A DNA stretch of 26,250 nt from a virus, in the IMG/VR virus record IMGVR_UViG_3300034158_000016, positions 1 to 26,250 of that record. The stretch is one strand, 5' to 3'. Positions 5,008 to 18,641 of this stretch are shown one piece after another; the stretch's first letter is position 1; each line of letters starts with the position of its first letter. A model generated the notes under the pieces. The model did no database searches and had not been told where the DNA came from. It saw only the letters and a list, made by a program, of their open reading frames with translations. The position numbers and the translations under genes were made by a program.

Positions 5008-5408
5008 TTCGACTCCTCAAGCGGTCCAGTGGCGGGCTCAACAACCCGCAAGACGCCGAACTCATGCGCATTGTGAAGCGGATGCCTGAGAAGGGCAAGA
5101 CGTACATGCGAGGCCGCCACTGGACCTCCGGCTATGAGGTCTGCGGGGTCATTACTGCAGGTGATCGCATTGTCGAGATGAACAATGAGGCCACCGGGCC
5201 GGGCAAGTTCGCATTTCCTGCAATGGCGGTTGTGGCGTTGTATGAGGCGGCTGGGACCTCCGAGCAGGCAAAGGCAATTTGGCACTCTCACCCCAATGGG
5301 AATGATGAGTTGAGCGAGGCAGACAAAGCCGCTCACCCTGCATTTGTGCCCTTTGCCGTGATCGTGAACCCCAAGGATGGAATTGTCTCCTGGTGGGAGA
5401 TGCATTAG
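5004..5408 (+). CDS. JAMM/MPN-family zinc metallopeptidase
   Basis: A 134-residue protein carrying the whole JAMM signature. A glutamate, E45, lies in YEVCGVI, the usual place for the catalytic acid. It is followed by H94-S-H96 and, after seven residues, S104-x-x-D107 (HSHPNGNDELSEAD). In this superfamily the two His and the Asp bind zinc and the Glu activates water to cleave isopeptide or peptide bonds. Known phage members are tail-assembly peptidases such as lambda gpK, usually with an NlpC/P60 domain beside the tail-tip genes. This one is a stand-alone domain upstream of the large terminase, so its substrate is open: a phage structural protein, a host protein or a ubiquitin-like conjugate. 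The ATG at 5004 is chosen because it overlaps the previous stop; extra upstream codons lie inside the neighbour. Confidence 0.85.
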   Translation: MIRLLKRSSGGLNNPQDAELMRIVKRMPEKGKTYMRGRHWTSGYEVCGVITAGDRIVEMNNEATGPGKFAFPAMAVVALYEAAGTSEQAKAIWHSHPNGNDELSEADKAAHPAFVPFAVIVNPKDGIVSWWEMH

Positions 5409-5409
5409 G

Positions 5410-5589
5410 ATGGTCGAGACCGAGCCGACCGACATGCGAGCGTGGATCGAGGCGCGCTCGGTGCCCGAGGGTCGGCCGATCCCGTCCGGCTCCGGCGCTA
5501 TGGGCCCGAGCGCGCACACTCCGAGCCCGAGAGCGGTGCCGAACGTGGAGGAGGGCTCTCCGGAGCCCGAGGAGCCTGCGGAGCCGTAG
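5410..5589 (+). CDS. small Pro/Glu-rich protein
   Basis: A 59-residue, acidic, Pro-rich peptide beginning one base after the JAMM stop codon, with GTGGGAG (5393-5399) as a plausible ribosome site. The N-terminal 20 residues may be helical (MVETEPTDMRAWIEARSV); the rest (PSPRAVPNVEEG, then repeated Pro-Glu pairs) should be disordered. No family is recognised. An Arg-rich frame at 5393-5611 overlaps it and looks like a shadow. Coding status is moderately supported by position and the absence of a better frame. Confidence 0.5.
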   Translation: MVETEPTDMRAWIEARSVPEGRPIPSGSGAMGPSAHTPSPRAVPNVEEGSPEPEEPAEP

Positions 5590-5641
5590 GCGAGCCGTCC
5601 GGCGCGAGTAGGCTTGACAAATCGACCAATGAGGAGACACC

Positions 5642-5803
5642 ATGACGGTGCAAGATTTGATGGACAGACTCAGAATGATGCCGCCCAATGCGGCTCTTGC
5701 CGTTGAGGTGCCCCACCCGAGCGGATACGGCGCTGCCTACCTCAACATTGTGGCTGCGAGCGCGAGCCTGACCGAGCCCTATGCCACGATTGTGGCGCGC
5801 TGA
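5642..5803 (+). CDS. 53-residue protein, 'MTVxxLxxxL..LPP' type
   Basis: A short gene with a strong ribosome site (GAGGAGA at 5631-5637). The product opens with MTVQDLMDRLRMMPPNAALA, a pattern seen in many small phage and prophage proteins in which a short helix ending in a Pro pair leads into a beta strand (here LAVEVPHP). Their function is generally unknown. A TAGGCT at 5609-5614, 28 bases upstream of the ATG, might be a -10 element. The stop shares one base with the next start (TGATG). Confidence 0.7.
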   Translation: MTVQDLMDRLRMMPPNAALAVEVPHPSGYGAAYLNIVAASASLTEPYATIVAR

Positions 5804-6000
5804 TGCCGACCGAGGATGACCGCGTGACGGTCGAGGGTGTGATGGCCGTTGTGGTCAGCGCCGAGATTGAGGGTGTGATCATTGCATTGGGCGATGAAGC
5901 CAATACGCGCTTGGTCTTGTCCAACGGCGAGGCAATGGAGATGTCTGTCGCTTTGGCGGAATGTGCACTCAATCGGCACATCGAGGGATTTGTCGACTGA
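5803..6000 (+). CDS. hypothetical 65-residue protein
   Basis: A small beta-strand-rich protein (VMAVVVSAEIEGVIIALGDE) with a C-terminal helix (MSVALAECALNRHIEGFVD). Both ends overlap neighbours by one base (TGATG at 5801-5805 and 5998-6002), placing it in a coupled set directly upstream of the large terminase. No known domain is recognised, and the terminal VD rules out a ubiquitin-like Gly-Gly tail that might have paired with the nearby JAMM protein. Confidence 0.7.
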   Translation: MPTEDDRVTVEGVMAVVVSAEIEGVIIALGDEANTRLVLSNGEAMEMSVALAECALNRHIEGFVD

Positions 6001-7487
6001 TGGCCAAGATCATCGACAATGTGGCGCTGCGGGATGGCGTGTTCAAGCGGGTCGGCTATGAGCCGCACCGAGGGCAACGGTCCATTCACACGTCAACCGC
6101 CCGGCACCGAGTCGCAGCCTGTGGCCGACGCTTTGGCAAGTCATTCCTCGGTGGGGAGGAGTTGACTGTTGAGGCTTTCCGGGCTCGCTTGATCCTCCCG
6201 AGCCTGGAACAAAGCGGCAAGCGGCGTGAGTTCTGGATCGTCGGCCCCAACTACACTGACGCTGAGAAGGAATTCAGGGTCATGTATGACGGGCTCGCCA
6301 AATTGGGCGCGCCATTCGACAAGCCGGGCACCTACAACAATCCTCACGATGGGGATATGCAGGTGTCGCTCTACAAAGGCAAGTTTGTGGTCATTGCCAA
6401 GTCGGCTCAATACCCTGAGCGGCTTGTCGGTGAGGGTCTCAACGGCGTGATCATGGCCGAGGCCGCAAAGCAAAAGCCATCGACCTGGAACAAGTACATT
6501 CGCCCAATGCTCGCGGACTACAATGGGTGGTCTTTGCACACATCTACCCCTGAGGGCAAAAACTGGTTCTATGACGCGTGGATGCGCGGGCAGTCGCAAT
6601 TTGAGACCGACTGGGAATCATGGCGGATGCCGTCGTGGCGCAACCCGTATGTCTACCCGCATGGCGCGACCAAGGCTGCGGTCACCTCGCTCCGGCGGGC
6701 AATCGACTCCAAGACCACTGCAATTACCTCGGATATGATGCTCGCAATGGGCGTCGATCCCGAGGTTGGCGCGCTCATGAAGGATTTGACCCAAGAATCC
6801 TTTGGCGCTGAGATTGCAGCGGAGTTCACCGAGTTTGTCGGGCGTGTGTTCAAGGACTTTGATGAGGAATTGCACGTCAAGGACTTCAACTACAGGCCCG
6901 ATTGGCCGATCTATGCGGCTGCTGACTACGGATTCACCAACCCGTTTGTCTGGCTGCTGATCCAGATCAGCCCGGACGGCACCGTGTGGGTGCTCGATGA
7001 GATGTATGAGCGCGGATTGACCATTGATGAGGCCGGTGATGAGATTCTTGCACGCGGTCTGTGCCCGAGTAGCGTCAAATTGCTGTATCCGGACCCTGCG
7101 AGCCCTGGGGACACACGCGCGCTTGAGAAGAAATTGCACATTCGTGGCATGCGCGGCACTGGCGGGCTCCTCTCGGTGCGTTTGCGGTACATTCGTGCCG
7201 CTCTCAAGGAGCGCAATACGCATTTGCCGTATGGATCGGCTGAGCGACAGCCCAAGATGTTCATCAATCGGCGCTGCATTGAGACAATTCGTGAGTTCAG
7301 CGCCTACCGCTATCCGCAGACGGTGGCCGAGGCAGCCGACCGAGGCAAGGAGCCGTCCGAGAATCCCATGAAGGTGGACGACCACACGCCCGAGACCTTG
7401 GGGCGATTCTTTGCAGGGCATTTCGGCGTGCCTGATGCGGGCCGCGAGCGCCGAGGAGCCCGTCAAGCCACCGCCGATGTATCCTAG
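6000..7487 (+). CDS. terminase large subunit (packaging ATPase and nuclease)
   Basis: A 495-residue protein of typical length for the large terminase subunit, the motor that translocates DNA into the prohead and cuts the concatemer. Walker A is CGRRFGKS at residues 41-48. Walker B is GVIMAEAA (149-156) with catalytic E154 and Ala where Asp is common. The coupling motif is TSTPEG (181-186). The nuclease domain has D309 in AAADYGFTNP, D365 in LLYPDP and D460-D461 in KVDDHTPETL, matching the three acidic positions of the RNase H-like fold. The ATG at 6000 is chosen because it shares a base with the previous stop; an in-frame ATG at 5961 lies inside that gene. The stop codon overlaps a TAGAAT sequence that may be a promoter element for the next gene. 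Confidence 0.95.
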   Translation: MAKIIDNVALRDGVFKRVGYEPHRGQRSIHTSTARHRVAACGRRFGKSFLGGEELTVEAFRARLILPSLEQSGKRREFWIVGPNYTDAEKEFRVMYDGLAKLGAPFDKPGTYNNPHDGDMQVSLYKGKFVVIAKSAQYPERLVGEGLNGVIMAEAAKQKPSTWNKYIRPMLADYNGWSLHTSTPEGKNWFYDAWMRGQSQFETDWESWRMPSWRNPYVYPHGATKAAVTSLRRAIDSKTTAITSDMMLAMGVDPEVGALMKDLTQESFGAEIAAEFTEFVGRVFKDFDEELHVKDFNYRPDWPIYAAADYGFTNPFVWLLIQISPDGTVWVLDEMYERGLTIDEAGDEILARGLCPSSVKLLYPDPASPGDTRALEKKLHIRGMRGTGGLLSVRLRYIRAALKERNTHLPYGSAERQPKMFINRRCIETIREFSAYRYPQTVAEAADRGKEPSENPMKVDDHTPETLGRFFAGHFGVPDAGRERRGARQATADVS

Positions 7488-7490
7488 AAT
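7485..7490 (+). promoter_or_regulatory. possible -10 element overlapping the terminase stop
   Basis: TAGAAT matches five of six bases of a sigma-70-type -10 box and stands 33 bases ahead of the ATG at 7523. No clear -35 is seen at 16-18 bases upstream. Similar TAG-x-x-T hexamers precede several other genes in the window, which is the main support. Confidence 0.3.
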
Positions 7491-7522
7491 GACCGCTCGG
7501 TTCAATGCAATGAGGAGAACAA

Positions 7523-7921
7523 ATGCGCGTGTATGAAGTTGACATTGTCTGTGAGGGAAGCACCCTCAAGGCGCTCAGCAAGGCATTCAAGGCACGTCTT
7601 GCCGAGTTCATCCTGGCCATGGCCACGGCTGAGGCTGAAATCACCTCGGTGACGACGGCAATCACTGCCTCCACCAAGGTGACCGAGAAGAATCCCCAGC
7701 GCTCCGAGGCCATCGCCATTGACCGGCTTTGGACGTGCACCCGCACCTATGCGGTCACGCTCCACGAGACCGGCGATGCGGCCGAGCCCGAGCCCGTCAC
7801 AAACGTCAATGTGGGTGACATCATCGCCCGGCTTGACGCGCTCCTGGAGGCCGACCGGCTCATGTCGGATCGGATGATCATCGTGGAGGGCAAGATTGCC
7901 GCTCTGCCGCCCGTAGTCTGA
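7523..7921 (+). CDS. hypothetical protein
   Basis: A 132-residue protein with a clear ribosome site (GAGGAGAAC just before the ATG). The first third is a beta strand followed by an Ala/Lys helix (STLKALSKAFKARLAEFILA). The middle is Thr/Ser-rich. The C-terminal 35 residues (VGDIIARLDALLEADRLMSD) have coiled-coil spacing. No family is recognised. It is the first gene after the large terminase, separated from it by 35 bases, and its stop shares a base with the next start (TGATG). Confidence 0.7.
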   Translation: MRVYEVDIVCEGSTLKALSKAFKARLAEFILAMATAEAEITSVTTAITASTKVTEKNPQRSEAIAIDRLWTCTRTYAVTLHETGDAAEPEPVTNVNVGDIIARLDALLEADRLMSDRMIIVEGKIAALPPVV

Positions 7922-8136
7922 TGGAGGTCCCGATGGGCGTTGTCGAGGCGTTCTGGGCCGCAAGGGTGCGTAGCGCAAGCCGAGCGCACCGCCTAGCGCT
8001 CGCCTATGTCGCGGCTCGCGGCCTGACCGACCCGGCCGCCACGCTCTCGCCCATCGGGATCGGCTTGTACCTCAAGACCGGCTCGGAGGACCCGCGTGCG
8101 GGCTCTCCTCTCGCCTGGGGCGGGTCGCACGGCTAG
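7921..8136 (+). CDS. hypothetical small protein
   Basis: A 71-residue protein translationally coupled to the preceding gene (TGATG). Residues 8-35 are an Ala/Arg helix (VVEAFWAARVRSASRAHRLA) and the rest is Gly/Pro-rich with a strand (PIGIGLYLKTG). An in-frame ATG at 7933 is an alternative start. I do not recognise it. The gene ends before an inverted repeat, AATTGCCG (8138-8145) with CGGCAATT (8172-8179), which may end or regulate transcription. Confidence 0.6.
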   Translation: MEVPMGVVEAFWAARVRSASRAHRLALAYVAARGLTDPAATLSPIGIGLYLKTGSEDPRAGSPLAWGGSHG

Positions 8137-8167
8137 GAATTGCCGGTGCCGATTTGCCGATCTGCAT

Positions 8168-8196
8168 TCGACGGCAATTGGGGTCTGCGGTAGAGT
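8168..8196 (+). promoter_or_regulatory. promoter candidate for the gene at 8241
   Basis: TCGACG (8168-8173) matches four of six bases of TTGACA. After a 17-base spacer, TAGAGT (8191-8196) matches four of six of TATAAT. It lies 45 bases ahead of the ATG and overlaps the right arm of the inverted repeat 8138-8179. The call rests on pattern only. Confidence 0.35.
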
Positions 8197-8240
8197 CGGT
8201 GTCGGAGCCCAGAACGGGCTCCAGAGCCAAGGAGAGCAAA

Positions 8241-8561
8241 ATGAAGACAATCAAGGCAATTGACGTGGACCTGGTGATGGCCCAGAATGTCCGCAAGGGA
8301 ATGTTCACCATCGACGGAATGGTGCTCAAGGTGGACCGGCAGGGTCTGCAGGGCATCGATGACCTCATCCGCATCGAGTTTCGCTCCACCGTCTACCTGG
8401 AGCGGCCGACCGACGGTGTCCAGGTGTACGGCCGGGTGTCCGAGCCGATGGCGGACATGGTCGTGACCGACCTCCTGGAGCGTGGCGAGCGGGTCGGTGG
8501 CCGAGCCGAGCGAGACCCGGCTGGCTCCGCTCTCGGTCGGCACTCGGTGACCGGCCGATGA
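8241..8561 (+). CDS. hypothetical protein
   Basis: A 106-residue protein. The ATG at 8241 is chosen because AAGGAGAGCAAA stands directly before it; the frame is open further upstream (ATG 8154), but that part encodes an unlikely Arg/Ser-rich leader across a probable promoter. Residues 1-60 alternate strands (IKAIDVDLVMAQNVRKGMFT, then GMVLKVDRQG) and suggest a small beta barrel or fold-back sheet. The C-terminus is Arg/Gly-rich. No family is recognised. The stop overlaps a 32-codon CxxC micro-gene (ATGA at 8558-8561). Confidence 0.65.
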   Translation: MKTIKAIDVDLVMAQNVRKGMFTIDGMVLKVDRQGLQGIDDLIRIEFRSTVYLERPTDGVQVYGRVSEPMADMVVTDLLERGERVGGRAERDPAGSALGRHSVTGR

Positions 8562-8656
8562 TCGGCCACGAGTATGAGCCGGGCGAGGTGACCACGCCGA
8601 TGCACTCGGACCCGCTCTGCGCGGTCTGCGGACGGTCCAAGCCGGAGCACGGCTAG
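8558..8656 (+). CDS. 32-residue CxxC microprotein
   Basis: A short frame opens at the ATG within the preceding stop (ATGA) and ends at TAG 8654-8656. Its product contains one Cys knuckle (LCAVCGRSKPEH), a rubredoxin-like half zinc ribbon with a trailing His, so it could bind zinc with those residues or as a dimer. Similar tiny knuckle proteins are frequent in actinophages. A perfect 12-bp hairpin begins 26 bases after the stop, which fits an operon end. Confidence 0.6.
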   Translation: MIGHEYEPGEVTTPMHSDPLCAVCGRSKPEHG

Positions 8657-8682
8657 CACCCGCCCGACACGAGACGCAGCGA

Positions 8683-8714
8683 GCCCGGGTTGCAGCCGAT
8701 TATGCAACCCGGGC
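8683..8714 (+). terminator. GC-rich hairpin, likely intrinsic terminator
   Basis: GCCCGGGTTGCA (8683-8694) pairs perfectly with TGCAACCCGGGC (8703-8714) around an 8-base loop. A weakly T-rich tail (AAGTTGTTG) follows. It closes the 8241-8656 gene pair. Confidence 0.65.
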
Positions 8715-8729
8715 AAGTTGTTGTAAGAT
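8701..8729 (+). promoter_or_regulatory. promoter candidate overlapping the terminator
   Basis: TATGCA (8701-8706), a 17-base spacer, and TAAGAT (8724-8729) make a candidate related to those at 9260-9289 and 10385-10414: all three carry CGATTA followed at once or after one base by GCAA. The predicted transcription start would fall at about 8736-8737, on the ATG of the next gene. Confidence 0.4.
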
Positions 8730-8736
8730 GAGCGCT

Positions 8737-8955
8737 ATGAGCCTCTCCGAGAACACCGCCACCGCCCGCTGGACCGTCGCCTGCAACGGCCGGACATCCT
8801 TCTATGAGGTCCACGCGGCTGGGTGCCGCCACCTCATGGCCGCCCACCTGGACATCATGTACACCGCTGAGGCCGAGTCCGGCAAGGCCGAGCAGAAGCG
8901 GTTCAACGAGGGCAACGAGGGATGCATCGCAAAACTCGGTCCCTGCGCCCGGTAG
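8737..8955 (+). CDS. small Cys/His-containing protein, possibly leaderless
   Basis: A 72-residue protein with four Cys and two His (VACNGR, HAAGCRH, EGCIAKLGPC), a pattern compatible with a single metal site though not a standard zinc ribbon. It has a central helix (LMAAHLDIMYTAEAE). An upstream in-frame ATG at 8728 overlaps the candidate -10 box. The ATG at 8737 lies where transcription would begin, and no ribosome site is visible for either, so a leaderless message is plausible. No family is recognised. A hairpin follows seven bases after the stop. Confidence 0.65.
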   Translation: MSLSENTATARWTVACNGRTSFYEVHAAGCRHLMAAHLDIMYTAEAESGKAEQKRFNEGNEGCIAKLGPCAR

Positions 8956-8962
8956 CACGACC

Positions 8963-8986
8963 GGCCCGGGTCATCCGATCCGGGCC
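8963..8986 (+). terminator. hairpin after the gene at 8737
   Basis: GGCCCGGGT (8963-8971) pairs with ATCCGGGCC (8978-8986) with one G-U wobble and a 6-base loop. No T-run follows. It sits between two short genes, so it may be an attenuator rather than a full stop. Confidence 0.5.
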
Positions 8987-9014
8987 ACCCGCTCGATCCT
9001 CTCAAGGAGTCAAA

Positions 9015-9230
9015 ATGGCCACTGCTCGGAAGTCCACCGCTGTTGTCGTCGTCACCGTCTGCTCCGGCTGCATGGAGCCCGTCCGGCTCGATCTGGAGAA
9101 GGGCACCGCCACCTGCTCCCAGCCGCTGAACCGCACCCCGGTCTCGGTCGAGGTCTGGGGAGACCCGGACCTGTGGACCTGGGACTGCCCGTTGTGCGAC
9201 TATGCCGACTCTTTTGACCCGAACTTCTGA
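9015..9230 (+). CDS. small zinc-ribbon protein
   Basis: A 71-residue protein. After a Val-rich strand it has a CSGC knuckle at residues 16-19 and a second knuckle, CPLC, near residue 58, with one more Cys between them. Two CxxC pairs spaced by about 40 residues are the hallmark of a zinc ribbon, which could contact nucleic acid or protein. The ATG at 9015 is chosen because AAGGAGTCAAA lies directly upstream; codons further upstream overlap a hairpin and the previous gene. No closer family is recognised. Confidence 0.7.
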   Translation: MATARKSTAVVVVTVCSGCMEPVRLDLEKGTATCSQPLNRTPVSVEVWGDPDLWTWDCPLCDYADSFDPNF

Positions 9231-9241
9231 GGGCTCCCGAG

Positions 9242-9276
9242 CCCGGCCGGAGCGCCGATTAGGCAACCCGGCCGGG
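9242..9276 (+). terminator. hairpin ahead of the gene at 9340
   Basis: CCCGGCCGG (9242-9250) pairs with CCGGCCGGG (9268-9276) around a 17-base loop that contains the repeat core CGATTAGGCAA. It lies just after the zinc-ribbon gene and overlaps the promoter-like repeat. Confidence 0.45.
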
Positions 9277-9292
9277 ATGCAGGTAGACTGAC
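9256..9292 (+). promoter_or_regulatory. promoter-like repeat, copy 1
   Basis: A 37-base element matches 10381-10417 at 33 positions. It contains TAGGCA (9260-9265, four of six of a -35 box), an 18-base spacer and TAGACT (9284-9289, four of six of a -10 box). The conservation of both boxes and their spacing supports a promoter for the 9340-9696 gene pair. Confidence 0.5.
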
Positions 9293-9339
9293 CCTTGTTG
9301 GAGCCGAACGACCCGAGCCGCTGAACCGAGGAGCCTGAA

Positions 9340-9651
9340 ATGTCCGCTGCTATGAACCCCGTCGAGGTCTCGCTGATGACCGCGCTGAACCTGTTCCTGG
9401 ACAACGATGTCCCGATGGTCGTCGGTGCCGACTTCACGACCCTCGCAGCCGATCTGGTCGAGGCCGGGTGGATGCGGCCGATGTCCGCTGCTCGGACCCT
9501 CACCGGGCTCATCGAGAAGGGCCTGCTGTCGGCCGACCTGAAGGTCACCGAGCAGGGAATGATGATCTGGTCGCTCCTCCAGGACGCCGACATCCAGGCC
9601 CAGACGCTCGCGGCTGCCGTTGCCCGCGCTGAGGCTCGCCTCCACTCCTGA
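9340..9651 (+). CDS. winged-helix-like protein
   Basis: A 103-residue protein. Residues 10-75 show a helix-helix-helix-wing layout: a helix (VSLMTALNLFLDN), a second helix (TLAADLVEAGWM), then SAARTLTGLIEKGLLSADL as recognition helix and wing start, followed by KVTEQGMMIWSLL. This resembles MarR/ArsR-type DNA-binding domains, in which '..L..L..KGLL...' precedes the wing. A matching segment occurs in the next gene. It may be a small transcription regulator or an adaptor lacking DNA binding. It carries the repeat promoter and start motif upstream, and there is no terminator before the next gene. 90 of its 103 codons end in G or C by hand count. Confidence 0.65.
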   Translation: MSAAMNPVEVSLMTALNLFLDNDVPMVVGADFTTLAADLVEAGWMRPMSAARTLTGLIEKGLLSADLKVTEQGMMIWSLLQDADIQAQTLAAAVARAEARLHS

Positions 9652-9695
9652 TCTGCCCCGTTCCACCCGAGCCGCACCCGAACAAGGAGCCCGAA

Positions 9696-10364
9696 ATGAC
9701 CAAGATCAACCTCACCCCTGCCGAGACCGCCATCGTGAAGGTCCTGCACACGATCGACCACATGAGCGACGGGCCGATGGAGGCCGACTACTCCGGCGTG
9801 TGGGGCGGTTGCATCACCGACCGCATCCGGCTCATCGAGCAGCGGAACATGGCCGGTGCGATGGGCATCCTGTCCTCGCTCGTCAAGAAGGGCGTGCTGC
9901 GGCCCGAGGGTGACATCGAGGAGGACGGGCACTGGATGGTCCTCACGCGGGACGGCTACCTCACCTGGGCCGCGCTCCAGGAGGAGGAGCCGAACACCCG
10001 GCACCCCGAGCCGGTGTACTGCTCCAAGCCCGGAGAGCACGGTAAGGGCATGGACATGGGCCCTAGCGCCACCGAGCCCGAGCCCGAGGCCGCTCCGGAG
10101 CCCGAGTGGACCGTCACAGCGTTCCTCCACAGGACGAATGACACCAACGTGTGGGTCCGGGTGGAGGCCACGCTGCCGACCAAGACCAACGGGATCGACC
10201 CGGCTGAGATCGAGCAGGCCGTGCTGGAGGAGTCGCGCCGCATCGCGGTCTCCCAGGGCATCCGGCAGACCGGAGGGGTGCCGCTGGTCCGGCTGCTCGA
10301 CATCGATGGGTCCTACGGCATCAGCCGGGCCACGTCCTTCATGGTCCACTACGGCATCCGCTGA
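9696..10364 (+). CDS. winged-helix-like protein with C-terminal extension
   Basis: A 222-residue protein. Residues 5-95 parallel the preceding protein: an N-terminal helix (LTPAETAIVKVLHTIDHM), then GAMGILSSLVKKGVLRPEG as recognition helix and turn, and a wing ending HWMVLTRDGYLTWAALQ. A Pro/Glu-rich linker follows (about 118-135). A C-terminal domain of about 85 residues has a strand-rich start (WTVTAFLHR) and helices; it is not recognised. The two genes probably arose by duplication. They are separated only by a start-associated repeat and no terminator, so they are likely co-transcribed. A hairpin and second promoter-like repeat follow. Confidence 0.7.
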   Translation: MTKINLTPAETAIVKVLHTIDHMSDGPMEADYSGVWGGCITDRIRLIEQRNMAGAMGILSSLVKKGVLRPEGDIEEDGHWMVLTRDGYLTWAALQEEEPNTRHPEPVYCSKPGEHGKGMDMGPSATEPEPEAAPEPEWTVTAFLHRTNDTNVWVRVEATLPTKTNGIDPAEIEQAVLEESRRIAVSQGIRQTGGVPLVRLLDIDGSYGISRATSFMVHYGIR

Positions 10365-10373
10365 GGCCGCTCG

Positions 10374-10401
10374 CCCGGCTCGATTAGGCAATCGGGCCGG
10401 G
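10374..10401 (+). terminator. hairpin after the gene at 9696
   Basis: CCCGGCTCGAT (10374-10384) pairs with ATCGGGCCGGG (10391-10401) with one wobble around the loop TAGGCA. That loop is also the -35-like box of the following promoter candidate. Confidence 0.55.
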
Positions 10402-10417
10402 TTGCAGTTAGACTGAC
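10381..10417 (+). promoter_or_regulatory. promoter-like repeat, copy 2
   Basis: The second copy of the 37-base element has TAGGCA at 10385-10390, an 18-base spacer and TAGACT at 10409-10414, 43 bases before the next ATG. Its upstream half is built into the preceding hairpin. Confidence 0.5.
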
Positions 10418-10456
10418 GTCGTTGGAGTTGATCGAGAGCCGAACTGAGGAGCCGAA

Positions 10457-10702
10457 ATGCGTATTGAGATCATCCGAGTCGGGCAGGTCCGGATTGGCGA
10501 CCGCGTGTGCGAGCCCGACACCGACAGCCGGGATGAGGCCGAGGTCAACGAGGGCTGGGCCGCCAAGGACCAGCCGTGGATGGTGGCCACCGCCCGAGGC
10601 GGACACGCCGACATCGGCTGGGTCGAGTTTCGGATGCCCGATGGCGACATCGAGCGCTGGAGCGGTGACTGGGAGATGTTCGCCTGGCGCTTGACCGACT
10701 AG
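10457..10702 (+). CDS. hypothetical protein
   Basis: An 81-residue protein preceded by the start-associated repeat. It alternates short strands (MRIEIIRVGQVRIGDRVCEP; then MVATARGGHADIGWVEFRM) with acidic turns and several Trp, which suggests a compact beta-sheet domain. One Cys only; no membrane segment. No family is recognised. It is bracketed by a promoter-like repeat upstream and a perfect 11-bp hairpin downstream, so it may be its own transcription unit. Confidence 0.65.
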   Translation: MRIEIIRVGQVRIGDRVCEPDTDSRDEAEVNEGWAAKDQPWMVATARGGHADIGWVEFRMPDGDIERWSGDWEMFAWRLTD

Positions 10703-10712
10703 CCGCACTCGG

Positions 10713-10740
10713 GCCGGGCTCGGTAACCTCCGAGCCCGGC
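10713..10740 (+). terminator. perfect 11-bp hairpin after the gene at 10457
   Basis: GCCGGGCTCGG (10713-10723) pairs perfectly with CCGAGCCCGGC (10730-10740) around the loop TAACCT. It starts ten bases after the stop codon. No T-run follows. Confidence 0.6.
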
Positions 10741-10790
10741 TCACCCGTACTGAGCCGCACGATCCGCAAGAGCCGAACAAGGAGCCTGAA

Positions 10791-11099
10791 ATGTCCGATG
10801 ACCTGACCGTTGTCCCGACCGCCGAGTTGGCGCGATACCTGAACCGCCTGGCCCAAGCGTCCGACACGATGGCGCGTGCGAGCGCCGAGGTGATGAAGGA
10901 TGCCCGCGTTGTCCGCGAGTGCCTCACGAGCGGCTTTCGGCCGTCTGAGAACGGCCAGAGCCTGACCGACATGATGGTGGCCATCGGCAAGTTCAACCTC
11001 CTGCTGGAGATGGCTCCGAGCGGGACGACCCAGGAGCACTGGGCGCTCGCGATGAACGTCACTGCCCGCCCGTACTTCACCGCAGCGGTCGTGGCCTGA
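10791..11099 (+). CDS. hypothetical helical protein
   Basis: A 102-residue, mostly helical protein (LARYLNRLAQASDTMARASA; ADVMKDARVVREC-like middle; MVAIGKFNLLLEMA). It has one Cys and no membrane segment. The start-associated repeat stands directly upstream. I do not recognise a family. Its stop shares a base with the start of the next gene (TGATG), so the two are coupled. Confidence 0.65.
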   Translation: MSDDLTVVPTAELARYLNRLAQASDTMARASAEVMKDARVVRECLTSGFRPSENGQSLTDMMVAIGKFNLLLEMAPSGTTQEHWALAMNVTARPYFTAAVVA

Positions 11100-11407
11100 T
11101 GGCCGTCCGCGAGCCCTGGGTTTGGGGCGGGCTCCGAGCCCGTCCGCTGGACACGGCGCACAACTCCGAGGACCCGCGCTGCGAGCGCTGGACCGGCGAC
11201 CACTCGGGCATGAACTGGGACGCTCGCTGCCCGACCTGCGACCACGGCGCAACGCCGATCTGGGCCGCAGTCGAGGCTCGCGCCAAGGAGATGTCTCAGC
11301 CCGCTCCGAGCCCGGTCGAGGATCGGCTCATCCGGGTGCTGGTGCCGGTCGGCATCGTCCTCGCGGTCTCGGTGGTCGTGTCCCAACTCTGGATGTTCTT
11401 CACCTGA
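11099..11407 (+). CDS. C-terminally anchored membrane protein with Cys knuckle
   Basis: A 102-residue protein coupled to the preceding gene. The N-terminal half holds Cys and His residues (CERWTGDHSG, then CPTCDHG), which could bind one metal ion. After a Pro-rich linker, the last 25 residues (VLVPVGIVLAVSVVVSQLWM) form a single membrane span with a very short tail. The soluble part should face the cytoplasm if it is tail-anchored. No family is recognised. Two hairpins follow, closing the accessory stretch before the portal gene. Confidence 0.65.
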   Translation: MAVREPWVWGGLRARPLDTAHNSEDPRCERWTGDHSGMNWDARCPTCDHGATPIWAAVEARAKEMSQPAPSPVEDRLIRVLVPVGIVLAVSVVVSQLWMFFT

Positions 11408-11443
11408 GAGGCTCGGGCCGGGTTGCACCCTAGATGTGCCACC

Positions 11444-11461
11444 GGCTGCCACTAGGCAGCC
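11444..11461 (+). terminator. short hairpin, first of two
   Basis: GGCTGCC (11444-11450) pairs perfectly with GGCAGCC (11455-11461) around ACTA. It lies 37 bases after the preceding stop codon and 11 bases before a stronger hairpin. Confidence 0.45.
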
Positions 11462-11472
11462 TTGCCGTCCAC

Positions 11473-11504
11473 CCGCCCCATACCGGACCTCCGGTGTGGG
11501 GCGG
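11473..11504 (+). terminator. strong 14-bp hairpin upstream of the portal gene
   Basis: CCGCCCCATACCGG (11473-11486) pairs with CCGGTGTGGGGCGG (11491-11504), with one wobble and a 4-base loop. It probably separates transcription of the accessory genes from the structural module. A TAGCCT at 11526-11531, 34 bases before the portal ATG, might restart transcription. Confidence 0.65.
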
Positions 11505-11564
11505 CATGGCGCCTGGGCCAGCGAGTAGCCTTGGCGCGACGCAAACCCACGAGGAGGACCCGAC

Positions 11565-13130
11565 ATGGCCGACGCCATCCCAGTGATGACACCATATACA
11601 ACGGCGCTGCCGATGTTCGGCGTGCTGCCGACTTGGATGGATACCAATGACGCGCAGCGCATTGCCTCATACCAGGTATATGAGCAGATGTACTGGAACA
11701 TCGATCAGACGTTCAAGTTGGTGCAGCGCGGGAGTCAGGCCAATCCTCTGTACATTCCGTCCGGCCGGACGATTGTGGACACGACCAACCGCTACACCGG
11801 CACCGCATTCTCTGCATTGGTCGATCCCGAGTTTGGGACTCCGGCCGATCAACTCTCGCTCAAGACCGCGCTGCGGCAATTGTTCGCGCGGGAGAGGTTC
11901 AAGAGCAAGTACAATGCCGCCAAGCGCTATGGCCTGATTCGTGGCGACTGGGGATTCCACATTGTGGCTGATCCCAACAAGGCAGAGGGCTCGCGGCTCT
12001 CCATCTACTCACTCGACCCGGGCTCAATGTTCCAGGTGACGCACCCGGATGATCTGGAGCGCATTCAGGCCTGGCACATTGTCGATCAATGGATTGATCC
12101 GGAGTCCGGCGACACCTACCTCAAGCGGCAGACCTATTCCAAGGGTCCTGACCCGTATGACCCCGACAAGGACGACGGCAAGATTTGGTCGAGCCTGGCC
12201 ATCTACAACATGGATGACTGGAGCGAAAGCGGATCGAGCCCGTACATCAAATTGGAGGAGCCCGCTCCTCTGCCCGACTCAATCACGGCGCTGCCCGTCT
12301 ACCACATCCGCAACTTTGAGGAGCCCGGCAATCCTTGGGGCTCCTCGGAATTGCGCGGGTTTGAGGCGCTCATGGCGTCGATCAACCAGAGCATGACTGA
12401 TGAGGAATTGTCGCTTGCCCTTGACGGGCTCGGCGTGTATGCCACGACCTCCGGACCTCCGCAGGACGACGACGGCAATGACGTCAATTGGCGGCTCGGG
12501 CCGGGCCGCGTTGTTGAACTCGATCCGGTGGACCAGCAGAGCGTTGACCAAATCTTCAAGCGGGTCAATGGGGTCGGCTCGGTCACGCCATACGGCGATC
12601 ACATCAAGCGCGTGTATGACTTCATGATGGAGGCCAGCAATACTCCGGACGTTGCGCGCGGCAAGGTCGATGTTGCGGTTGCCGAGTCGGGCGTGTCGCT
12701 CAACATTCAGTTCAGCCCGATGCTCGCCAAGGTCGGTGAGAAGGATGACTGCATCTCGGATGCAATGACGCAATTCCTGTATGACCTCGCATTCATGTGG
12801 TTCCCTGCATATGAGGGCACCTCATTCGGTGACGCCATCGCCGTCCCGCAATTCGGTGAGAAGTTGCCGGTCAACAAGGCCGCCAAGGTCACCGAGATTC
12901 TGTCCATTGTCGAGAGCGGAGTTGCCTCGGCAGAATGGGGCCGGATCGAATTGGCCAAGTACGGCTACCTGTTCGATGCGGCTGAGGGCTCCAAGGTGGT
13001 CGCTGAGACCGCTGCCAAGGCGTCTGCGGCCGATACCTTTGCCACCAGGAGCGCTGCGGAGATGGACGGGACGGCCGGAGCGACCGGCGAGCCGTCCGGA
13101 GCCGCTGAAGGTGGCACTACGGCTGCGTAG
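11565..13130 (+). CDS. portal protein
   Basis: A 521-residue protein of the length and position of siphoviral portals, which form the dodecameric ring at one capsid vertex through which DNA passes and to which the terminase and MuF protein attach. Supporting features are the N-terminal helices with a Tyr-rich segment (YQVYEQMYWNIDQTF), the core with GDWGFHIVADP and SIYSLDPGSMF, the conserved turn NFEEPGNPWGSSEL, and the helix with MEASNTPDVARGK followed by SGVSLNIQFSPML. The C-terminus is Ala/Gly-rich. A good ribosome site (GAGGAGG) precedes the ATG. Downstream come a 39-residue basic protein and the MuF fusion. Strength rests on fold-typical motifs plus context; no sequence search was run. 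Confidence 0.88.
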   Translation: MADAIPVMTPYTTALPMFGVLPTWMDTNDAQRIASYQVYEQMYWNIDQTFKLVQRGSQANPLYIPSGRTIVDTTNRYTGTAFSALVDPEFGTPADQLSLKTALRQLFARERFKSKYNAAKRYGLIRGDWGFHIVADPNKAEGSRLSIYSLDPGSMFQVTHPDDLERIQAWHIVDQWIDPESGDTYLKRQTYSKGPDPYDPDKDDGKIWSSLAIYNMDDWSESGSSPYIKLEEPAPLPDSITALPVYHIRNFEEPGNPWGSSELRGFEALMASINQSMTDEELSLALDGLGVYATTSGPPQDDDGNDVNWRLGPGRVVELDPVDQQSVDQIFKRVNGVGSVTPYGDHIKRVYDFMMEASNTPDVARGKVDVAVAESGVSLNIQFSPMLAKVGEKDDCISDAMTQFLYDLAFMWFPAYEGTSFGDAIAVPQFGEKLPVNKAAKVTEILSIVESGVASAEWGRIELAKYGYLFDAAEGSKVVAETAAKASAADTFATRSAAEMDGTAGATGEPSGAAEGGTTAA

Positions 13131-13171: not shown

Positions 13172-13291
13172 ATGGGCGGCAAACCGAGCAAGGGCACCAA
13201 GAGGGACCACCGGCTCAAGGAGAACAAGACCAAGACCGTCAAGGCACCCAAGCCCGCATTCAAGGGCGCTGCAAAGCCATTCGGAAAGTGA
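13172..13291 (+). CDS. 39-residue Lys-rich protein
   Basis: A very basic peptide with 11 Lys and 2 Arg against one Asp and one Glu, starting MGGKPSKGTKRDHRLKENK. The frame has an AGAAGGG ribosome site (13157-13163) 8 bases ahead of the ATG and ends three bases before the MuF gene. The composition suggests an unstructured nucleic-acid-binding or scaffold-contacting peptide, perhaps packaged in the head. It is too short to have been found by length-limited gene callers. Confidence 0.6.
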   Translation: MGGKPSKGTKRDHRLKENKTKTVKAPKPAFKGAAKPFGK

Positions 13292-13294
13292 ACA

Positions 13295-15793
13295 ATGCCC
13301 CAGCCGCTCGGTGACAAAGGATCGACGCTCAACCCGTTCTTGTTTGTGCAGCAGAACACTGAGCGCGAATTGCGCGCGCAATTGCATGCGGCCGCACAGG
13401 ACATTGGGTCTGCGCTCCAGCGGTTGGAGGGCACTGACGGGATCGGCGCAGTGGCTCGCAGGGCGCAATACCGGATCGTGCAAGCCGAGATTGCCGCGAC
13501 ACAGGCTGCGCTTTGGGATGGAGTCGGCTCGACAATATCAATCGGCAAGGCGAGAGCGATTGATGCTGCGGCCGACTCCATCGCCAGCCTGACATCAATC
13601 TACCTTGCCGCGCCGGGCGTGCCCGTCCCTGCCGACCTCGCAGAAGCGCTGGTGTTTCAGGCCCGCCAAGGAATGACCAATGTGATGTCTCGCTCAACCA
13701 ACGGCATCTCATTGTCCGACCGCGTGTATGACCAACGGGCGCTCTCCACCGGCAAGGTAGCCCAGATCATTGACTCGGGCATCATCGGCGGAATGTCGGC
13801 GCGAGAGATTGCAAAGCAGGCATACCAGTTCATCTCTCCGATGACCCCTGGAGGAGCGAGTTACGCGGCAATGCGGCTCGGTCGCACCGAGTTGAACAAT
13901 GCATTCCACACGACGGCCGTCAAGCAGTGGGGTGTAAATCCCTTTGTTGAGAAGGTCGTGTGGAACCTCTCCGGCTCGCACGTCGTGCCGGACGAATGCA
14001 ATGCCCTTGACGGCCAGCAATTCGACCCGGCCAAGGTCCCTGGGAAGCCGCACCCGCAATGCTTCTGCTACATCACTGCATTGATGACCGATGAAGACAA
14101 GATGGTCGAGAAGTATGCAAACGGCGAATATGACGCATACCTTGACGACAAGATTGCCGCGAGCGCTTCCAAGTTCCCTGAGACCGACCGCGAGCGCGCC
14201 ATGGCTCTCACGCAGCGTCGGGTGTACACCGGCCCACCCGGACCTATGGGCGGGCTCCCGAGGGCCAAGACCATCCTTGAGTTGCCCGTAGCCCAGCGTA
14301 GTGCCTATCTCACAGGTGGAGAGCGGGCTCTGATCAAGCGCGTCATGACTACTCCGGCCGGATCGACCAAGGCCGTGGCCAAGAAGGCAATTGCCAAGGC
14401 TCCGGCTCGGGCGAAAGCGGTTGTTGCCCCAAAGCAGACCGTGTTCCAGGCCGAACACGCCGCTGCCAAGGCTCGGCTGCCCGTTGACCGCTCGATGATC
14501 GGCAAGGTCAAGGGCAAGGATTTGACCAGCGCTGAGGCCAAGGCCGAACGCATTGCTCAGAACAATGCCAAGGTTGGCGGGCCGGAAGCAATTGCAAAAT
14601 TGCCGCAATTAGAAGTTGAACTTGCCAAGTTGGAGGCTCTGGCCGATGAGGCAAAAGCCGTAGGTGAGGCCGTTTGGAAACTCCGGCTGGTGCCGACCGA
14701 CGAATGGCCCGCAGCAATCAAGGCTGCGCTGAAGGATGCAAAGGTCTCACTCAACGGCGAGCACCGGGACATCTATGACAGGGTGTTCAATTGGCAACAG
14801 GCCGTCAAGCAGAATTGGCAATTGGCTCGCGGTGAGGTCGGAGAGTTGCGCGGCGCAGTCCGGTCGGCCAAGGACATCATGGCCCAGACTTCTGATTGGT
14901 CGCTCAAGGGTGTCGTCCGGGCCGACATTGACCCGCTGACCGGCAAACTCGGAGCCGACTCCCAGAAAGCGCTCGATGCAATTATCGATGCCGGCAAGGC
15001 GATGGACAAAGAGATCAACGCGCGCATGTTGATCAAGTACGGCGAGCGACCGGCCGACATTCCCTATGGCAGCGGCAACCCGGTGACCTATGAAATGCGG
15101 AATGCCCGTGCAATTGCCCAGCGCGCATGGGACAAGCGGGCAGGAAAGATGCTCACCGATGTTCTGGGCGAGGTCCGGCCGCTCGGAGGCAAGGGACCTC
15201 AGTTCATTCTGCGTGAGTATGACGATGCACTAGGCGCTCCGATCCTGAAGTCTGACCCGAACAAACTCATGAAGCGCATGGAGGCTGCACAGGCTCGGTA
15301 TCCGGCCGAATGGAATGCGGCCAATGCTGCCGCCAACCCCAGGGTCAATGTGTTCCAGGTCAATCGTGGATACAATCGAGCAGGCAAGGACATTGCCTTG
15401 TCCGGCAAAAGCCAGCATGTTGCGACCCATGAACTCGGGCACTCCATGGAACTTGTCGTGGACGGGCTGCGCGGCTCCGAATGGGCGATGATCCATTCTC
15501 GCTCGATTGTTGAGGATGCAGCGACAGGCAAGTGGAAATTGCCGCTGATGGAGCAGACAAGTACCAATGCAAGCGCTGCCGGTGAACTTGGCTTGCGGGA
15601 TGCTTGGTCCAGTCGGTACTCCGGCCGCGTGTACGGTGATCGTGCTGTAGGTGCCGATGCACAATGGGAAGTCTTTACAACTGGGGTAGAGTCACTAATG
15701 GACGGGTCGGAGTATTTCGGCGGGCTGCCGGGGCAACGGTCTCTCGATACGCAATTCAAACACTACATCTTGGGAGTGCTCAGTGTCCTCTAG
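13295..15793 (+). CDS. MuF-domain head protein fused to a zincin metallopeptidase
   Basis: An 832-residue protein in three parts. Residues about 1-270 are the MuF minor head protein domain: RLGRTELNNAFHTTAVKQWG near residue 194, then KVVWNLSGSHVVPDEC, and the terminal HPQCFCYITA near 256. MuF proteins bind the portal inside the head and can enter the host with DNA. Residues about 340-690 are Ala/Lys-rich and helical. The C-terminal domain carries HELGH at 712-716 in HVATHELGHSMELVVDG, with E792 in QWEVFTTGVE as the probable third zinc ligand, the layout of gluzincin peptidases. The catalytic acid would be E713. Fusions of MuF to C-terminal effectors are known as MuF polymorphic toxins; this phage-encoded peptidase version could be an ejected effector or a head-maturation protease. 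Its 3' end overlaps the next gene by 11 bases. Confidence 0.85.
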   Translation: MPQPLGDKGSTLNPFLFVQQNTERELRAQLHAAAQDIGSALQRLEGTDGIGAVARRAQYRIVQAEIAATQAALWDGVGSTISIGKARAIDAAADSIASLTSIYLAAPGVPVPADLAEALVFQARQGMTNVMSRSTNGISLSDRVYDQRALSTGKVAQIIDSGIIGGMSAREIAKQAYQFISPMTPGGASYAAMRLGRTELNNAFHTTAVKQWGVNPFVEKVVWNLSGSHVVPDECNALDGQQFDPAKVPGKPHPQCFCYITALMTDEDKMVEKYANGEYDAYLDDKIAASASKFPETDRERAMALTQRRVYTGPPGPMGGLPRAKTILELPVAQRSAYLTGGERALIKRVMTTPAGSTKAVAKKAIAKAPARAKAVVAPKQTVFQAEHAAAKARLPVDRSMIGKVKGKDLTSAEAKAERIAQNNAKVGGPEAIAKLPQLEVELAKLEALADEAKAVGEAVWKLRLVPTDEWPAAIKAALKDAKVSLNGEHRDIYDRVFNWQQAVKQNWQLARGEVGELRGAVRSAKDIMAQTSDWSLKGVVRADIDPLTGKLGADSQKALDAIIDAGKAMDKEINARMLIKYGERPADIPYGSGNPVTYEMRNARAIAQRAWDKRAGKMLTDVLGEVRPLGGKGPQFILREYDDALGAPILKSDPNKLMKRMEAAQARYPAEWNAANAAANPRVNVFQVNRGYNRAGKDIALSGKSQHVATHELGHSMELVVDGLRGSEWAMIHSRSIVEDAATGKWKLPLMEQTSTNASAAGELGLRDAWSSRYSGRVYGDRAVGADAQWEVFTTGVESLMDGSEYFGGLPGQRSLDTQFKHYILGVLSVL

Positions 15794-16073
15794 CCAGAAG
15801 TCGTGGGCTGCGGTTGGTGACGGGTGGGTCATTTACTGGACCCCTGCCGAGCCGTACATCTCCGGCACGACCCGGGTGTGTAACGCGCTCCGGACGGCTC
15901 TTGACGGCAAGGGCTCGCTCACGATTGCCGTGACAGGCGAGGACGTGCGCAACTCGGTCACCGAGCCGATGGCCGTGCTCCTCTCGCTGGAGTCTGCGGC
16001 CGGTAGCCTGCCGCGCGGATTGAGCGAGAATGCGCCGCAAATCCCTGAATTGCCCAAGGGTGTTGTCGGGTAG
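15783..16073 (+). CDS. hypothetical protein overlapping the MuF gene
   Basis: A 96-residue protein starting at a GTG 11 bases inside the MuF gene, with TTGGGAG as ribosome site. It begins with a Trp-rich beta segment (SWAAVGDGWVIYWTPAEPYI), continues with helix ALRTALDGK and a strand (SLTIAVTG), and ends with a Pro-rich tail. The small, soluble alpha/beta layout and overlap with a peptidase gene would suit an immunity or chaperone partner, but that is inference and nothing in the sequence identifies it. A hairpin begins nine bases before its stop codon. Confidence 0.65.
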   Translation: MSSSQKSWAAVGDGWVIYWTPAEPYISGTTRVCNALRTALDGKGSLTIAVTGEDVRNSVTEPMAVLLSLESAAGSLPRGLSENAPQIPELPKGVVG

Positions 16074-16195: not shown

Positions 16196-16993
16196 ATGAT
16201 GGGACTCAAGACCAGCCTTGGAGTCGTGGCAAATCACCACGACCCGCTTGGCATGACGGCTGACGGGCGTGTCATTTGGCCCATTGTTGGTGCCGACTCT
16301 GACGGCGAGGACTCCGAGCAGGAGGACTCGGACGACGACGACGACACCGACGACGACGATGACGCCGACGATCAGGATGACGACGGCAAGAAGGGCAAGA
16401 AGTCCAAGAAGGACAAGGAGCCGGAGGACGACGACGACGACGATGCTGCATTCTGGCATTCTCGCGCTGATCGTTTCAAGGCTCGGATGGAAGCAGCGGA
16501 TCGCAGAGCGACCGTTGCCGAGCGGGAGAATCGTCGCCTGAAGGCAGGCAAGGATGACTCGCTCGATGAGCACGGCAAACAGGACCTCAAGGACTCGGTG
16601 GCCAGGGCGGCCAAAGCCGAAAGCGACCTTGCAGGCCTGCGGCTCCAGAATGCCATTCTGACGGACACGACATACCAGTGGGAGGACCCCGAACTGGTAT
16701 TGGCCGCGCTCGCCAAGGATGACACGGTGGAGATTGACGAGAATGGCAAGGTGGTGGGCGTGAAGCAGGCGCTGAAAGCGCTCGCCAAGTCCAAGCCGTT
16801 CTTGGTCAAGAAGGCAGTCATCAAGCCCGATCCCAAGGATGCCGATGACGAGGACGACGACGACGATGAGGACGATGAGGAGCCCGCCAAGAAGCGGACC
16901 TCAGGTGCCCCGTCGAATGGTCGCAAGTCCAAGTCCACGACTCCTGACCGCAAGGCGCTGATTGCCAAGTACCCGTCGTTGTCCCGTCGTTGA
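16196..16993 (+). CDS. capsid scaffold protein
   Basis: A 265-residue protein with the scaffold hallmarks: very acidic Asp/Glu runs (about residues 35-65 and again about 215-235), interrupted by short Lys blocks (KKGKKSKKDKE). A central helix of about 80 residues with coiled-coil spacing (WHSRADRFKARMEAADRRAT onward) follows, and then a basic C-terminus that probably contacts the coat protein. Scaffolds assemble with the coat into the procapsid and leave before DNA entry. Ribosome site AGGAGG precedes the ATG at 16196; an ATG at 16199 is an alternative. Position just before the decoration and coat genes matches. Confidence 0.8.
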   Translation: MMGLKTSLGVVANHHDPLGMTADGRVIWPIVGADSDGEDSEQEDSDDDDDTDDDDDADDQDDDGKKGKKSKKDKEPEDDDDDDAAFWHSRADRFKARMEAADRRATVAERENRRLKAGKDDSLDEHGKQDLKDSVARAAKAESDLAGLRLQNAILTDTTYQWEDPELVLAALAKDDTVEIDENGKVVGVKQALKALAKSKPFLVKKAVIKPDPKDADDEDDDDDEDDEEPAKKRTSGAPSNGRKSKSTTPDRKALIAKYPSLSRR

Positions 16994-17016: not shown

Positions 17017-17394
17017 ATGGCAAGGTTTGAGAAGGTCGATCCCAAGGATGGGTCCTTCCGCGCTCCGCTGGGATTTGACATCCTCGCGGCTGCGGTCGGC
17101 ATCCCGGTCGGCGTCGGCATTGACGCGAATGGCGTCGCAGTCATCGGTGCAGCGGGCGTGCCCGCACGGATCGTCGGCATTGTCGTGCCGTCGAGCCCGA
17201 TGAACATCGGTGACGCCATCGACGTCATGACCGATGGCGAGGTGGCCGATGTCACTGGCTTCCTGGCCGGAGACCAGGTTGTGGCCGATGCCACCACCGG
17301 GCTGCTCGGAACAAGTGCCGCGACCGGCGAGACCGATGTGCGTGTCGGCTTCACGGTTCAGGCTTGGCGCCTCATTGTCCGGATTGCGCGGTGA
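17017..17394 (+). CDS. putative capsid decoration (head fibre/stabilising) protein
   Basis: A 125-residue, Gly/Val/Ala-rich, beta-predicted protein with small repeats of the GIPVGVGID / GVAVIGAAGVPA type and a turn-rich middle (GDAIDVMTDGEVADVTGFLA). Small proteins of this size and composition located between scaffold and coat genes are commonly head decoration proteins that bind the capsid surface and stabilise it. Family assignment is not certain; a weaker alternative is a head-completion protein. Its stop lies six bases before the coat start used here. Confidence 0.6.
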   Translation: MARFEKVDPKDGSFRAPLGFDILAAAVGIPVGVGIDANGVAVIGAAGVPARIVGIVVPSSPMNIGDAIDVMTDGEVADVTGFLAGDQVVADATTGLLGTSAATGETDVRVGFTVQAWRLIVRIAR

Positions 17395-17399
17395 GCGAA

Positions 17400-18641
17400 A
17401 TGGGAACCATGAACAGCACCCTTGTCCGCCCGTCCCGCAACCTCCTTGTCGCGAGCGCGGGCCTGATCACGCCCAAGCACGCCGGTGAGGCATTCGGCCT
17501 GGGCATTGTGCCCGGTGTCGGTGGCTCGATGGCCCGAGGCATTCACGCCAACGGCGACAAGATCACTCAGACCGCCGATGGCCAGGACCTCAACGCCATG
17601 TGGAATGAGTTTCAGGCGAGCCTCGGCATCTGGAATGAGAAGCGCGACAGCCTCGTGCGCTTCCTGTCCTATGGTGTGACGGCCGCATCCGAGATGGTCT
17701 ATCAGGCTGGCGCCACCGCCAACTTTGAGGATGCCTCGGAGTATGGCGAGCCGGTCGGTTACCGGCCCGAGGCGTCGAGCGCCACGATGGGCTACACGTT
17801 CAAGTGGAAGGATCTTGCATTCCGCTACACGTGGCAGTACCTTGCCGACGCGCTTGCCTCGCAGATCGCTGCGGACAACTCGATGGCCATCGAGGCGGAC
17901 AGCCGCGAGGTGTTCATCCAGGTGATGGAGACCCTGTTCGGCAATGTGCGCCGGACCAACAAGGAGGGCGTGGTTGTTTACCCGTTCTACAACGGGCAGA
18001 CCGTCGATTCTTTCGACACCCCGCCGACCTACCGCAGCACCTCATTCGCTGCAGGACACAACCACTTCCTCACGACCGGCGCATCGTCGCTCGGCCAGGA
18101 GGACGTGGAGGCGCTTGAGGACACGATCACCGAGCACGGTTACATCCGCAGGAATGGCAACACGCTGATCCTGATGGTGAACCGCATCGAGGGCAACGTG
18201 ATGCGCAACTGGCGCTCGATTGCCAATGGCGGCTCCGGCCGCTATGACTTCATTCCCGCGCAGGGCACGCCGGCATTCCTTCTGCCTGCTGACCCGCGTG
18301 TGCTGGAGTCGGCAACTCGACCGGCCGCTGCATACCAGGGATTCGATGTCATCGGGTCCTACGGCGAATGGCTGGTCATCCAGGAGGACTACATTCCTGC
18401 TGGCTACCTCGCTGGCTTTGCGACGGGCGGGCAGGATTCTCTGCCCAACCCCATCGCTTTCCGCGAGCACGCCAATGCCGGTCTGCGCGGGCTCCGGCTC
18501 GTCAAGGGTCGTCAGCCTGACTACCCGCTGGTGGATTCCTTCTACAACCGTGGATTCGGCACCGGTGTCCGTCACCGTGGCGCGGCTGCGATTCTGAAGG
18601 TCACCGCTGGCGCGTACACCCCGCCCAACTTCCGGGCCTGA
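17400..18641 (+). CDS. major capsid protein
   Basis: A 413-residue protein read from the ATG at 17400; a GTG at 17391 overlapping the previous stop and an ATG at 17409 are alternatives. It has the size and position of an HK97-fold coat protein. Visible stretches include the N-terminal arm, a long helical region (EVFIQVMETLFGNVRR), the VYPFYNGQTVDSFDTPPTYR turn, and a strand-rich A-domain portion (LILMVNRIEGNVMRNWRSI). The C-terminus carries the hydrophobic/aromatic pattern of the coat core. In HK97-fold phages about 400 copies build the shell. No protease-site or lysine-asparagine cross-link can be judged. A perfect 15-bp hairpin follows the stop. Confidence 0.85.
   Translation: MGTMNSTLVRPSRNLLVASAGLITPKHAGEAFGLGIVPGVGGSMARGIHANGDKITQTADGQDLNAMWNEFQASLGIWNEKRDSLVRFLSYGVTAASEMVYQAGATANFEDASEYGEPVGYRPEASSATMGYTFKWKDLAFRYTWQYLADALASQIAADNSMAIEADSREVFIQVMETLFGNVRRTNKEGVVVYPFYNGQTVDSFDTPPTYRSTSFAAGHNHFLTTGASSLGQEDVEALEDTITEHGYIRRNGNTLILMVNRIEGNVMRNWRSIANGGSGRYDFIPAQGTPAFLLPADPRVLESATRPAAAYQGFDVIGSYGEWLVIQEDYIPAGYLAGFATGGQDSLPNPIAFREHANAGLRGLRLVKGRQPDYPLVDSFYNRGFGTGVRHRGAAAILKVTAGAYTPPNFRA

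Follow-up and report, generated by a model that had tools for sequence, protein, structure and literature searches.

The window, a virus contig of 26,250 bases (IMG/VR record IMGVR_UViG_3300034158_000016), carries a phage head module followed by tail genes and a tape-measure protein gene. The genes of the head module lie on the plus strand. A portal gene (11565–13130; phrog_64, E=7e-35; 34% to the Papyrus and Fowlmouth portals) precedes a long gene at 13295–15793 and a small overlapping gene at 15783–16073. Behind these are genes for a scaffold protein (16196–16993; phrog_4866, E=2e-27; PF06810), a minor capsid or cement-like protein (17017–17394; 33–46% to actinophage minor capsid proteins) and the major capsid protein (17364–18641; phrog_3990, E=1e-107), whose real start is probably downstream of 17364. 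The host lineage looks actinobacterial. A Lys-rich ORF of 39 aa is present at 13172–13291, between the portal gene and the long gene.

The long gene has an ATG start and encodes 832 residues. Residues 12–298 (13328–14188) form a MuF head domain of the SPP1 gp7 type. Three PHROG head-morphogenesis families match this region (E=2e-39, 6e-38 and 6e-26), and PF04233 matches the N-terminus at E=0.0018, under the Pfam gathering score. By BLASTP, residues 4–298 are 32–37% identical to the MuF proteins of Gordonia phage LuckyLeo, Mycobacterium phage Patience, Oaker, Fowlmouth and Papyrus. A variable linker without family match follows (residues 299–600, 14189–15094), which is A/K/P-rich near residues 357–380 and is missing in relatives with a short MuF protein. 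The remainder, residues 601–832 (15095–15790), is a predicted zincin domain.

The original prediction had read this gene as a MuF head protein fused to a zincin metallopeptidase, with HELGH at residues 712–716 and E792 as candidate third zinc ligand. We found both motifs at these positions on the 832-residue translation. It had also remarked on the lack of a serine-type prohead protease; consistent with this, we found no S78 prohead protease in the 26,250-base contig. A JAB metallopeptidase-like gene is present at about 4971–5408, upstream of the terminase gene, and in related actinophages a JAB gene immediately precedes the MuF gene. The JAB metalloprotease of these relatives was weighed as the missing protease and rejected.

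The zincin domain and its family

The HELGH motif (15428–15442) would provide the zinc ligands H712 and H716 and the general base E713, and E792 (15668–15670), at the start of the second active-site helix, is the predicted third ligand. In an alignment of 51 diverse domains, with identities to the window domain as low as 13%, H712, E713, H716, Y775, G777, Y780 and E792 are invariant, and R691, E719, R736, E764, D769, G797 and D818 are conserved in at least 90%. Y780 (15632–15634) is a possible transition-state tyrosine, by analogy with zincins of the lethal-factor and PPEP type. In that arrangement a tyrosine stands ahead of the third-ligand glutamate; the invariant tyrosine of the window resembles it, which is an analogy and not membership.

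An AF2 model built on the family alignment (pLDDT 86, pTM 0.86) has a zincin-like topology: a helix, a three-stranded sheet (strands 83–89, 93–95 and 99–103 in domain numbering), the HELGH helix (107–121) and a later helix (193–203) that begins just past E792, which is residue 192 of the domain. This order is that of the zincin core as set out in Iyer et al. 2017 (PMC5512222). When the model was compared with solved structures by Foldseek, the nine best rows and most others in the PDB list were Pro-Pro endopeptidases, and the best matches were weak (E=0.6, probability 0.5, TM about 0.3), thus the likeness to PPEP-1/2/3 is one of the zincin core only. The spacing from HExxH to Glu is also much longer in the window zincin (76 residues) than in PPEPs. 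PPEP-1/2/3 belong to the MEROPS M34 group, which also includes lethal-factor-type zincins. Strong structural matches were limited to unnamed phage proteins.

Residues 601–832 matched no Pfam family at E≤10, including MPTase-PolyVal and the other Pfam zincins, and no NCBIfam family. PHROGs 8561, 20397 and 33618 match the zincin family and carry no assigned function. The conservation of this sequence, far beyond chance, confirms that the MuF-zincin fusion with its predicted active-site residues intact is real, and together with the model it supports the prediction that the C-terminus is a zincin metallopeptidase. The two features on which the original prediction depended, a predicted zincin-like fold and conservation of H712, E713, H716 and E792, were thus both found.

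We then collected relatives of the domain. A tblastn search identified the C-terminus of minor head proteins of r1t-like Streptococcus phages (26%, E=1e-6), a Thermobispora plasmid protein (30%, E=5e-12) and a protein of a Micromonospora phage-plasmid. From these relatives we derived an exact DNA pattern that covered only the downstream motif, PY.G[KR].Y(x5)E[VI][FL]..G, and did not require HExxH. The pattern matched 47 viral contigs, all 47 of which encode the domain, and HExxH was found upstream in every one long enough to cover that part. Among genome contigs, 25 of 36 pattern matches scored as members; inspection of the rest added one that is likely real (L125, truncated), the others being noise. 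Other searches were less productive. Scans of IMG/VR proteins, whether with the complete fusion or with its zincin domain, gave zero confirmed relatives, an alignment of six zincin sequences was too diverged for searching, and a WEVFTTG pattern gave almost entirely chance matches, with members at 4 of 52 loci.

The collected family has 106 members. The domain is found behind MuF, behind Phage_min_cap2 and VG15 minor-head proteins, and with ddrB-ParB or ART domains. It also occurs as separate ORFs in contigs whose MuF gene lies elsewhere, as tandem genes in contigs like Planktothrix phage PaV-LD, and within very large proteins of Thermobispora and Planomonospora. Genome matches came from Cyanobacteria, Firmicutes, Actinomycetota, Proteobacteria, Bacteroidota, Spirochaetes and Eremiobacterota. 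When we sampled Actinomycetota (397 genomes) and Bacillota (300 genomes) evenly, we found no strong match apart from the seed genomes, which argues against a peptidase that is common on chromosomes. The family behaves like a cassette carried by phages.

A small gene behind the zincin domain

The gene at 15783–16073 (plus strand) overlaps the stop codon of the fusion gene. It starts with GTG, encodes 96 residues ending in PKGVVG, and has a third-position GC of 0.79 and a GGGAG six bases upstream of its start. This likely Shine-Dalgarno sequence lies within the fusion gene, at 15765–15785, where the same codons encode the conserved LGV at the zincin's C-terminus. The original prediction overlooked this small gene, which is the strongest clue that the locus is an effector and inhibitor cassette.

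To ask how regularly such a gene accompanies the zincin we applied a fixed rule, under which a partner ORF has 55–130 codons and starts between −15 and +20 relative to the stop. An adjoining small ORF was present at 52 of 61 C-terminal zincin genes; among the other long ORFs in these contigs, 41 of 270 had one (Fisher P=9e-26, kinship ignored). Seven of the nine zincin genes lacking one lie in tandem arrays with a partner nearby. The partners often end in a hydrophobic C-terminus (34 of 52, against 1 of 41 control ORFs; P=4e-11, kinship ignored), examples being GVVY, NAVF, EIVY and NIIF, with GVVG in the window; in about a third of them the tail is missing. Since the loci share descent, these P-values overstate independence.

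We found that the partners align as a single, divergent family. Its features are a G.L.GD hairpin, a stretch resembling TPTGP and a tail that often follows acidic or proline residues. A profile of this family matched 38 ORFs in the collected loci, and 36 of these were directly behind a zincin gene; of the other two, one was a longer reading of the same partner ORF and one a gene further along. Distances between zincins correlated with those between their partners (r=0.73; 0 of 500 permutations, not corrected for common descent), and the partner accompanies the zincin in unrelated phages. In contrast, zincins inside large proteins, for example in Xanthomonas phage Rb1 and in Neisseriaceae and Pseudomonas prophages, have no partner, which suggests that the domain can work without one.

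The partner had no match in Pfam, PHROG, PDB or BFVD, and tblastn of two partners against phage records found none. Its AF2 model was poor (pLDDT 67) and gave no match in a fold search. Judged from its association with the zincin, the 96-residue protein is probably an inhibitor of that domain, and we regard it as a candidate immunity protein.

The MuF/scaffold junction in related phages

LuckyLeo, Patience, Fowlmouth and Oaker have coats 39–43% identical to that of the window and the same short order of MuF, scaffold and minor coat genes. Their MuF proteins are about 305–320 aa and the scaffold gene begins 22–51 bp later. At exactly this junction the window has 530 additional residues and the small ORF. 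Papyrus has a different HEFGH-bearing extension and a different overlapping ORF, of 74 aa, at the same place, while Lactococcus phage 62503 encodes a MuF-zincin followed by a 72-aa ORF ending in NIIF and then the scaffold. The comparison of these junctions suggests that the extension and the small ORF are a unit that comes and goes.

We considered whether the Papyrus extension belongs to the same zincin family and rejected this. The MuF carriers are of a common clade (33% identity), but outside the region of the HExxH helix the two zincins do not align, and their small ORFs are different; these are separate cassettes at the same site. Papyrus gp12-gp13 (L154:3941-6732), in which gp12 is a MuF protein of the window's clade, is annotated as a capsid assembly protease, but another MuF effector cassette is the better reading.

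Possible roles of the fusion protein

MuF-metallopeptidase fusions and immunity ORFs downstream of MuF toxins form a known class, described by Jamet et al. 2017 (PMC5576092); 20% of the MuF toxins in their work had a metallopeptidase. For two MuF toxins an adjacent immunity protein has been proven, in the Bxa-Bsi/BAH (PMC11699363) and Apk2-IapK/Aph1 (PMC12226406) systems. The window shares the anatomy of these toxins: a MuF N-terminus encoded in the head module, a C-terminal extension of at least 100 aa that is here predicted to be enzymatic, and a small ORF directly downstream. It differs in that its zincin has no Pfam or NCBIfam model, although it may overlap the metallopeptidases of Jamet et al., and in that its host looks actinobacterial while their toxins came mostly from prophages of Firmicutes. 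These MuF toxin papers (PMC5576092, PMC11699363, PMC12226406) describe neither the partner family nor its tail. Thus the class is already known, and we did not find the zincin family, the partner family or the conserved tail in the databases or literature searched; the tail appears new.

Given an intact predicted active site and an accompanying probable inhibitor, the locus looks like a toxin-and-antidote cassette sent in with the DNA. Its resemblance to the MuF polymorphic toxins and to the proven immunity neighbours of Bxa and Apk2 leads us to propose a packaged, injected protease with a co-translated inhibitor. We therefore think it reasonably likely that the window encodes an exchangeable phage effector of the MuF type with a small inhibitor gene directly behind it. 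The MuF domain would dock the fusion protein at the portal within the head, and one or a few copies would go into the host with the DNA. There the zincin would cut a host protein; candidate targets are proteins that serve host defence or regulation, not the head of the phage itself. Inside the cell that produces the virions, the product of the overlapping gene would block the zincin, and it would remain behind when the virion ejects its contents. Delivery, proteolysis and inhibition are all inferred. The partners that lack the tail, the poor partner model and the protein-interior zincins without a partner count against the effector reading, and the occurrence of the MuF toxins of Jamet et al. 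2017 only in temperate phages (PMC5576092) may do so as well.

As a hypothesis based on the conservation of the tail, inhibition could perhaps occur by entry of the partner's hydrophobic C-terminus into the active-site cleft. In its widest form the proposal, which we advance only tentatively, would be a widespread, uncurated phage family whose zincin effectors occur in several bacterial phyla, whether fused to MuF, encoded singly or in tandem, or within giant proteins, and have dedicated inhibitors. The conserved xGVVY or xNAVF tail of these inhibitors would plug the active site like a bound product, and virions would carry inhibitor-free protease that becomes active only in the next host.

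The original prediction left open, on equal terms, a role for the metalloprotease on the phage's own procapsid. Held at the portal by MuF, the zincin would then cleave scaffold or coat as a head-maturation protease. The contig indeed lacks S78, only 3 of 34 zincin-family records have it, and some MuF relatives are labelled head maturation protease in PHROGs. However, the gene order is that of SPP1-type heads that use a scaffold, where related phages likewise show no S78, and S78 coexists with the zincin in at least two family records and on the Thermobispora plasmid. Viable isolates whose MuF, scaffold, minor and coat genes are homologous do without the zincin domain, which makes a required maturation role improbable, and an optional insert with its own partner gene would be unexpected for such a protease. 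We consider this role quite unlikely and so retain the effector half of the original proposal and not the equal standing of the two.

Autoproteolysis that frees the zincin or its MuF carrier, as proposed for polyvalent proteins like DdrB of P1, would make the small ORF a timing inhibitor or a substrate. Self-processing by zincin-like domains has been argued by Iyer et al. 2017 (PMC5512222), and the long A/K/P-rich linker and the presence of the domain inside very large phage proteins fit with it. But the zincin is the last domain, so that cutting would release only the zincin, and neither the length nor the sequence of the linker is conserved; we find this unlikely. The window zincin does resemble the zincin-like MPTases of polyvalent proteins described in that work in its phage-injected context, core topology and layout of HExxH and Glu, and members of its family are also found in giant proteins (Thermobispora, Planomonospora and L074). 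It differs in being C-terminal with a dedicated small partner, and the Pfam comparison covers only some of the 12 clades of Iyer et al. In a third reading the domain has kept its zinc site but not proteolysis, and serves the head as a structural appendage or protects the DNA. MuF proteins are structural, and proteolysis is a prediction for every member, but a general base E713 and a full active-site set that are invariant across very distant members, together with a near-obligate partner gene, make this very unlikely.

Most MuF extensions are without known function, and the only characterised MuF toxins that we found in the literature are Bxa and Apk2. The effector proposed here belongs to a zincin family that is defined by its sequence, has fixed catalytic residues and comes with a defined partner, and what a phage cuts in its host on entry becomes approachable through a pair of small proteins. 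Should the tail mechanism be true, the tails would indicate subsite preference and hence targets.

Several loci of the family have other arrangements. PaV-LD-like contigs (L002, L023, L051, L056 and L058) carry two overlapping zincin genes of about 370–390 aa, one small partner and a third zincin gene; a literature search found no virion proteomics for the zincin of PaV-LD. A 450-kb Frondihabitans sucicola plasmid (L005) has three consecutive zincin ORFs at 5761–10302 with small ORFs behind some, one annotated gene that is apparently frameshifted, and no obvious phage genes near the zincins. In L074 (IMGVR_UViG_3300036799_000112) an ORF of 3163 aa (3110–12598) combines an S78 prohead-protease domain with a C-terminal zincin, and a small partner ending in QEVY lies behind it. 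In a Mu-like or proteobacterial group (L018, L025, L027, L034, L043 and L124), possibly a second zincin subtype, the protein continues for another 135–185 aa after the zincin, and the downstream ORFs are of another family, with ends that are often acidic.
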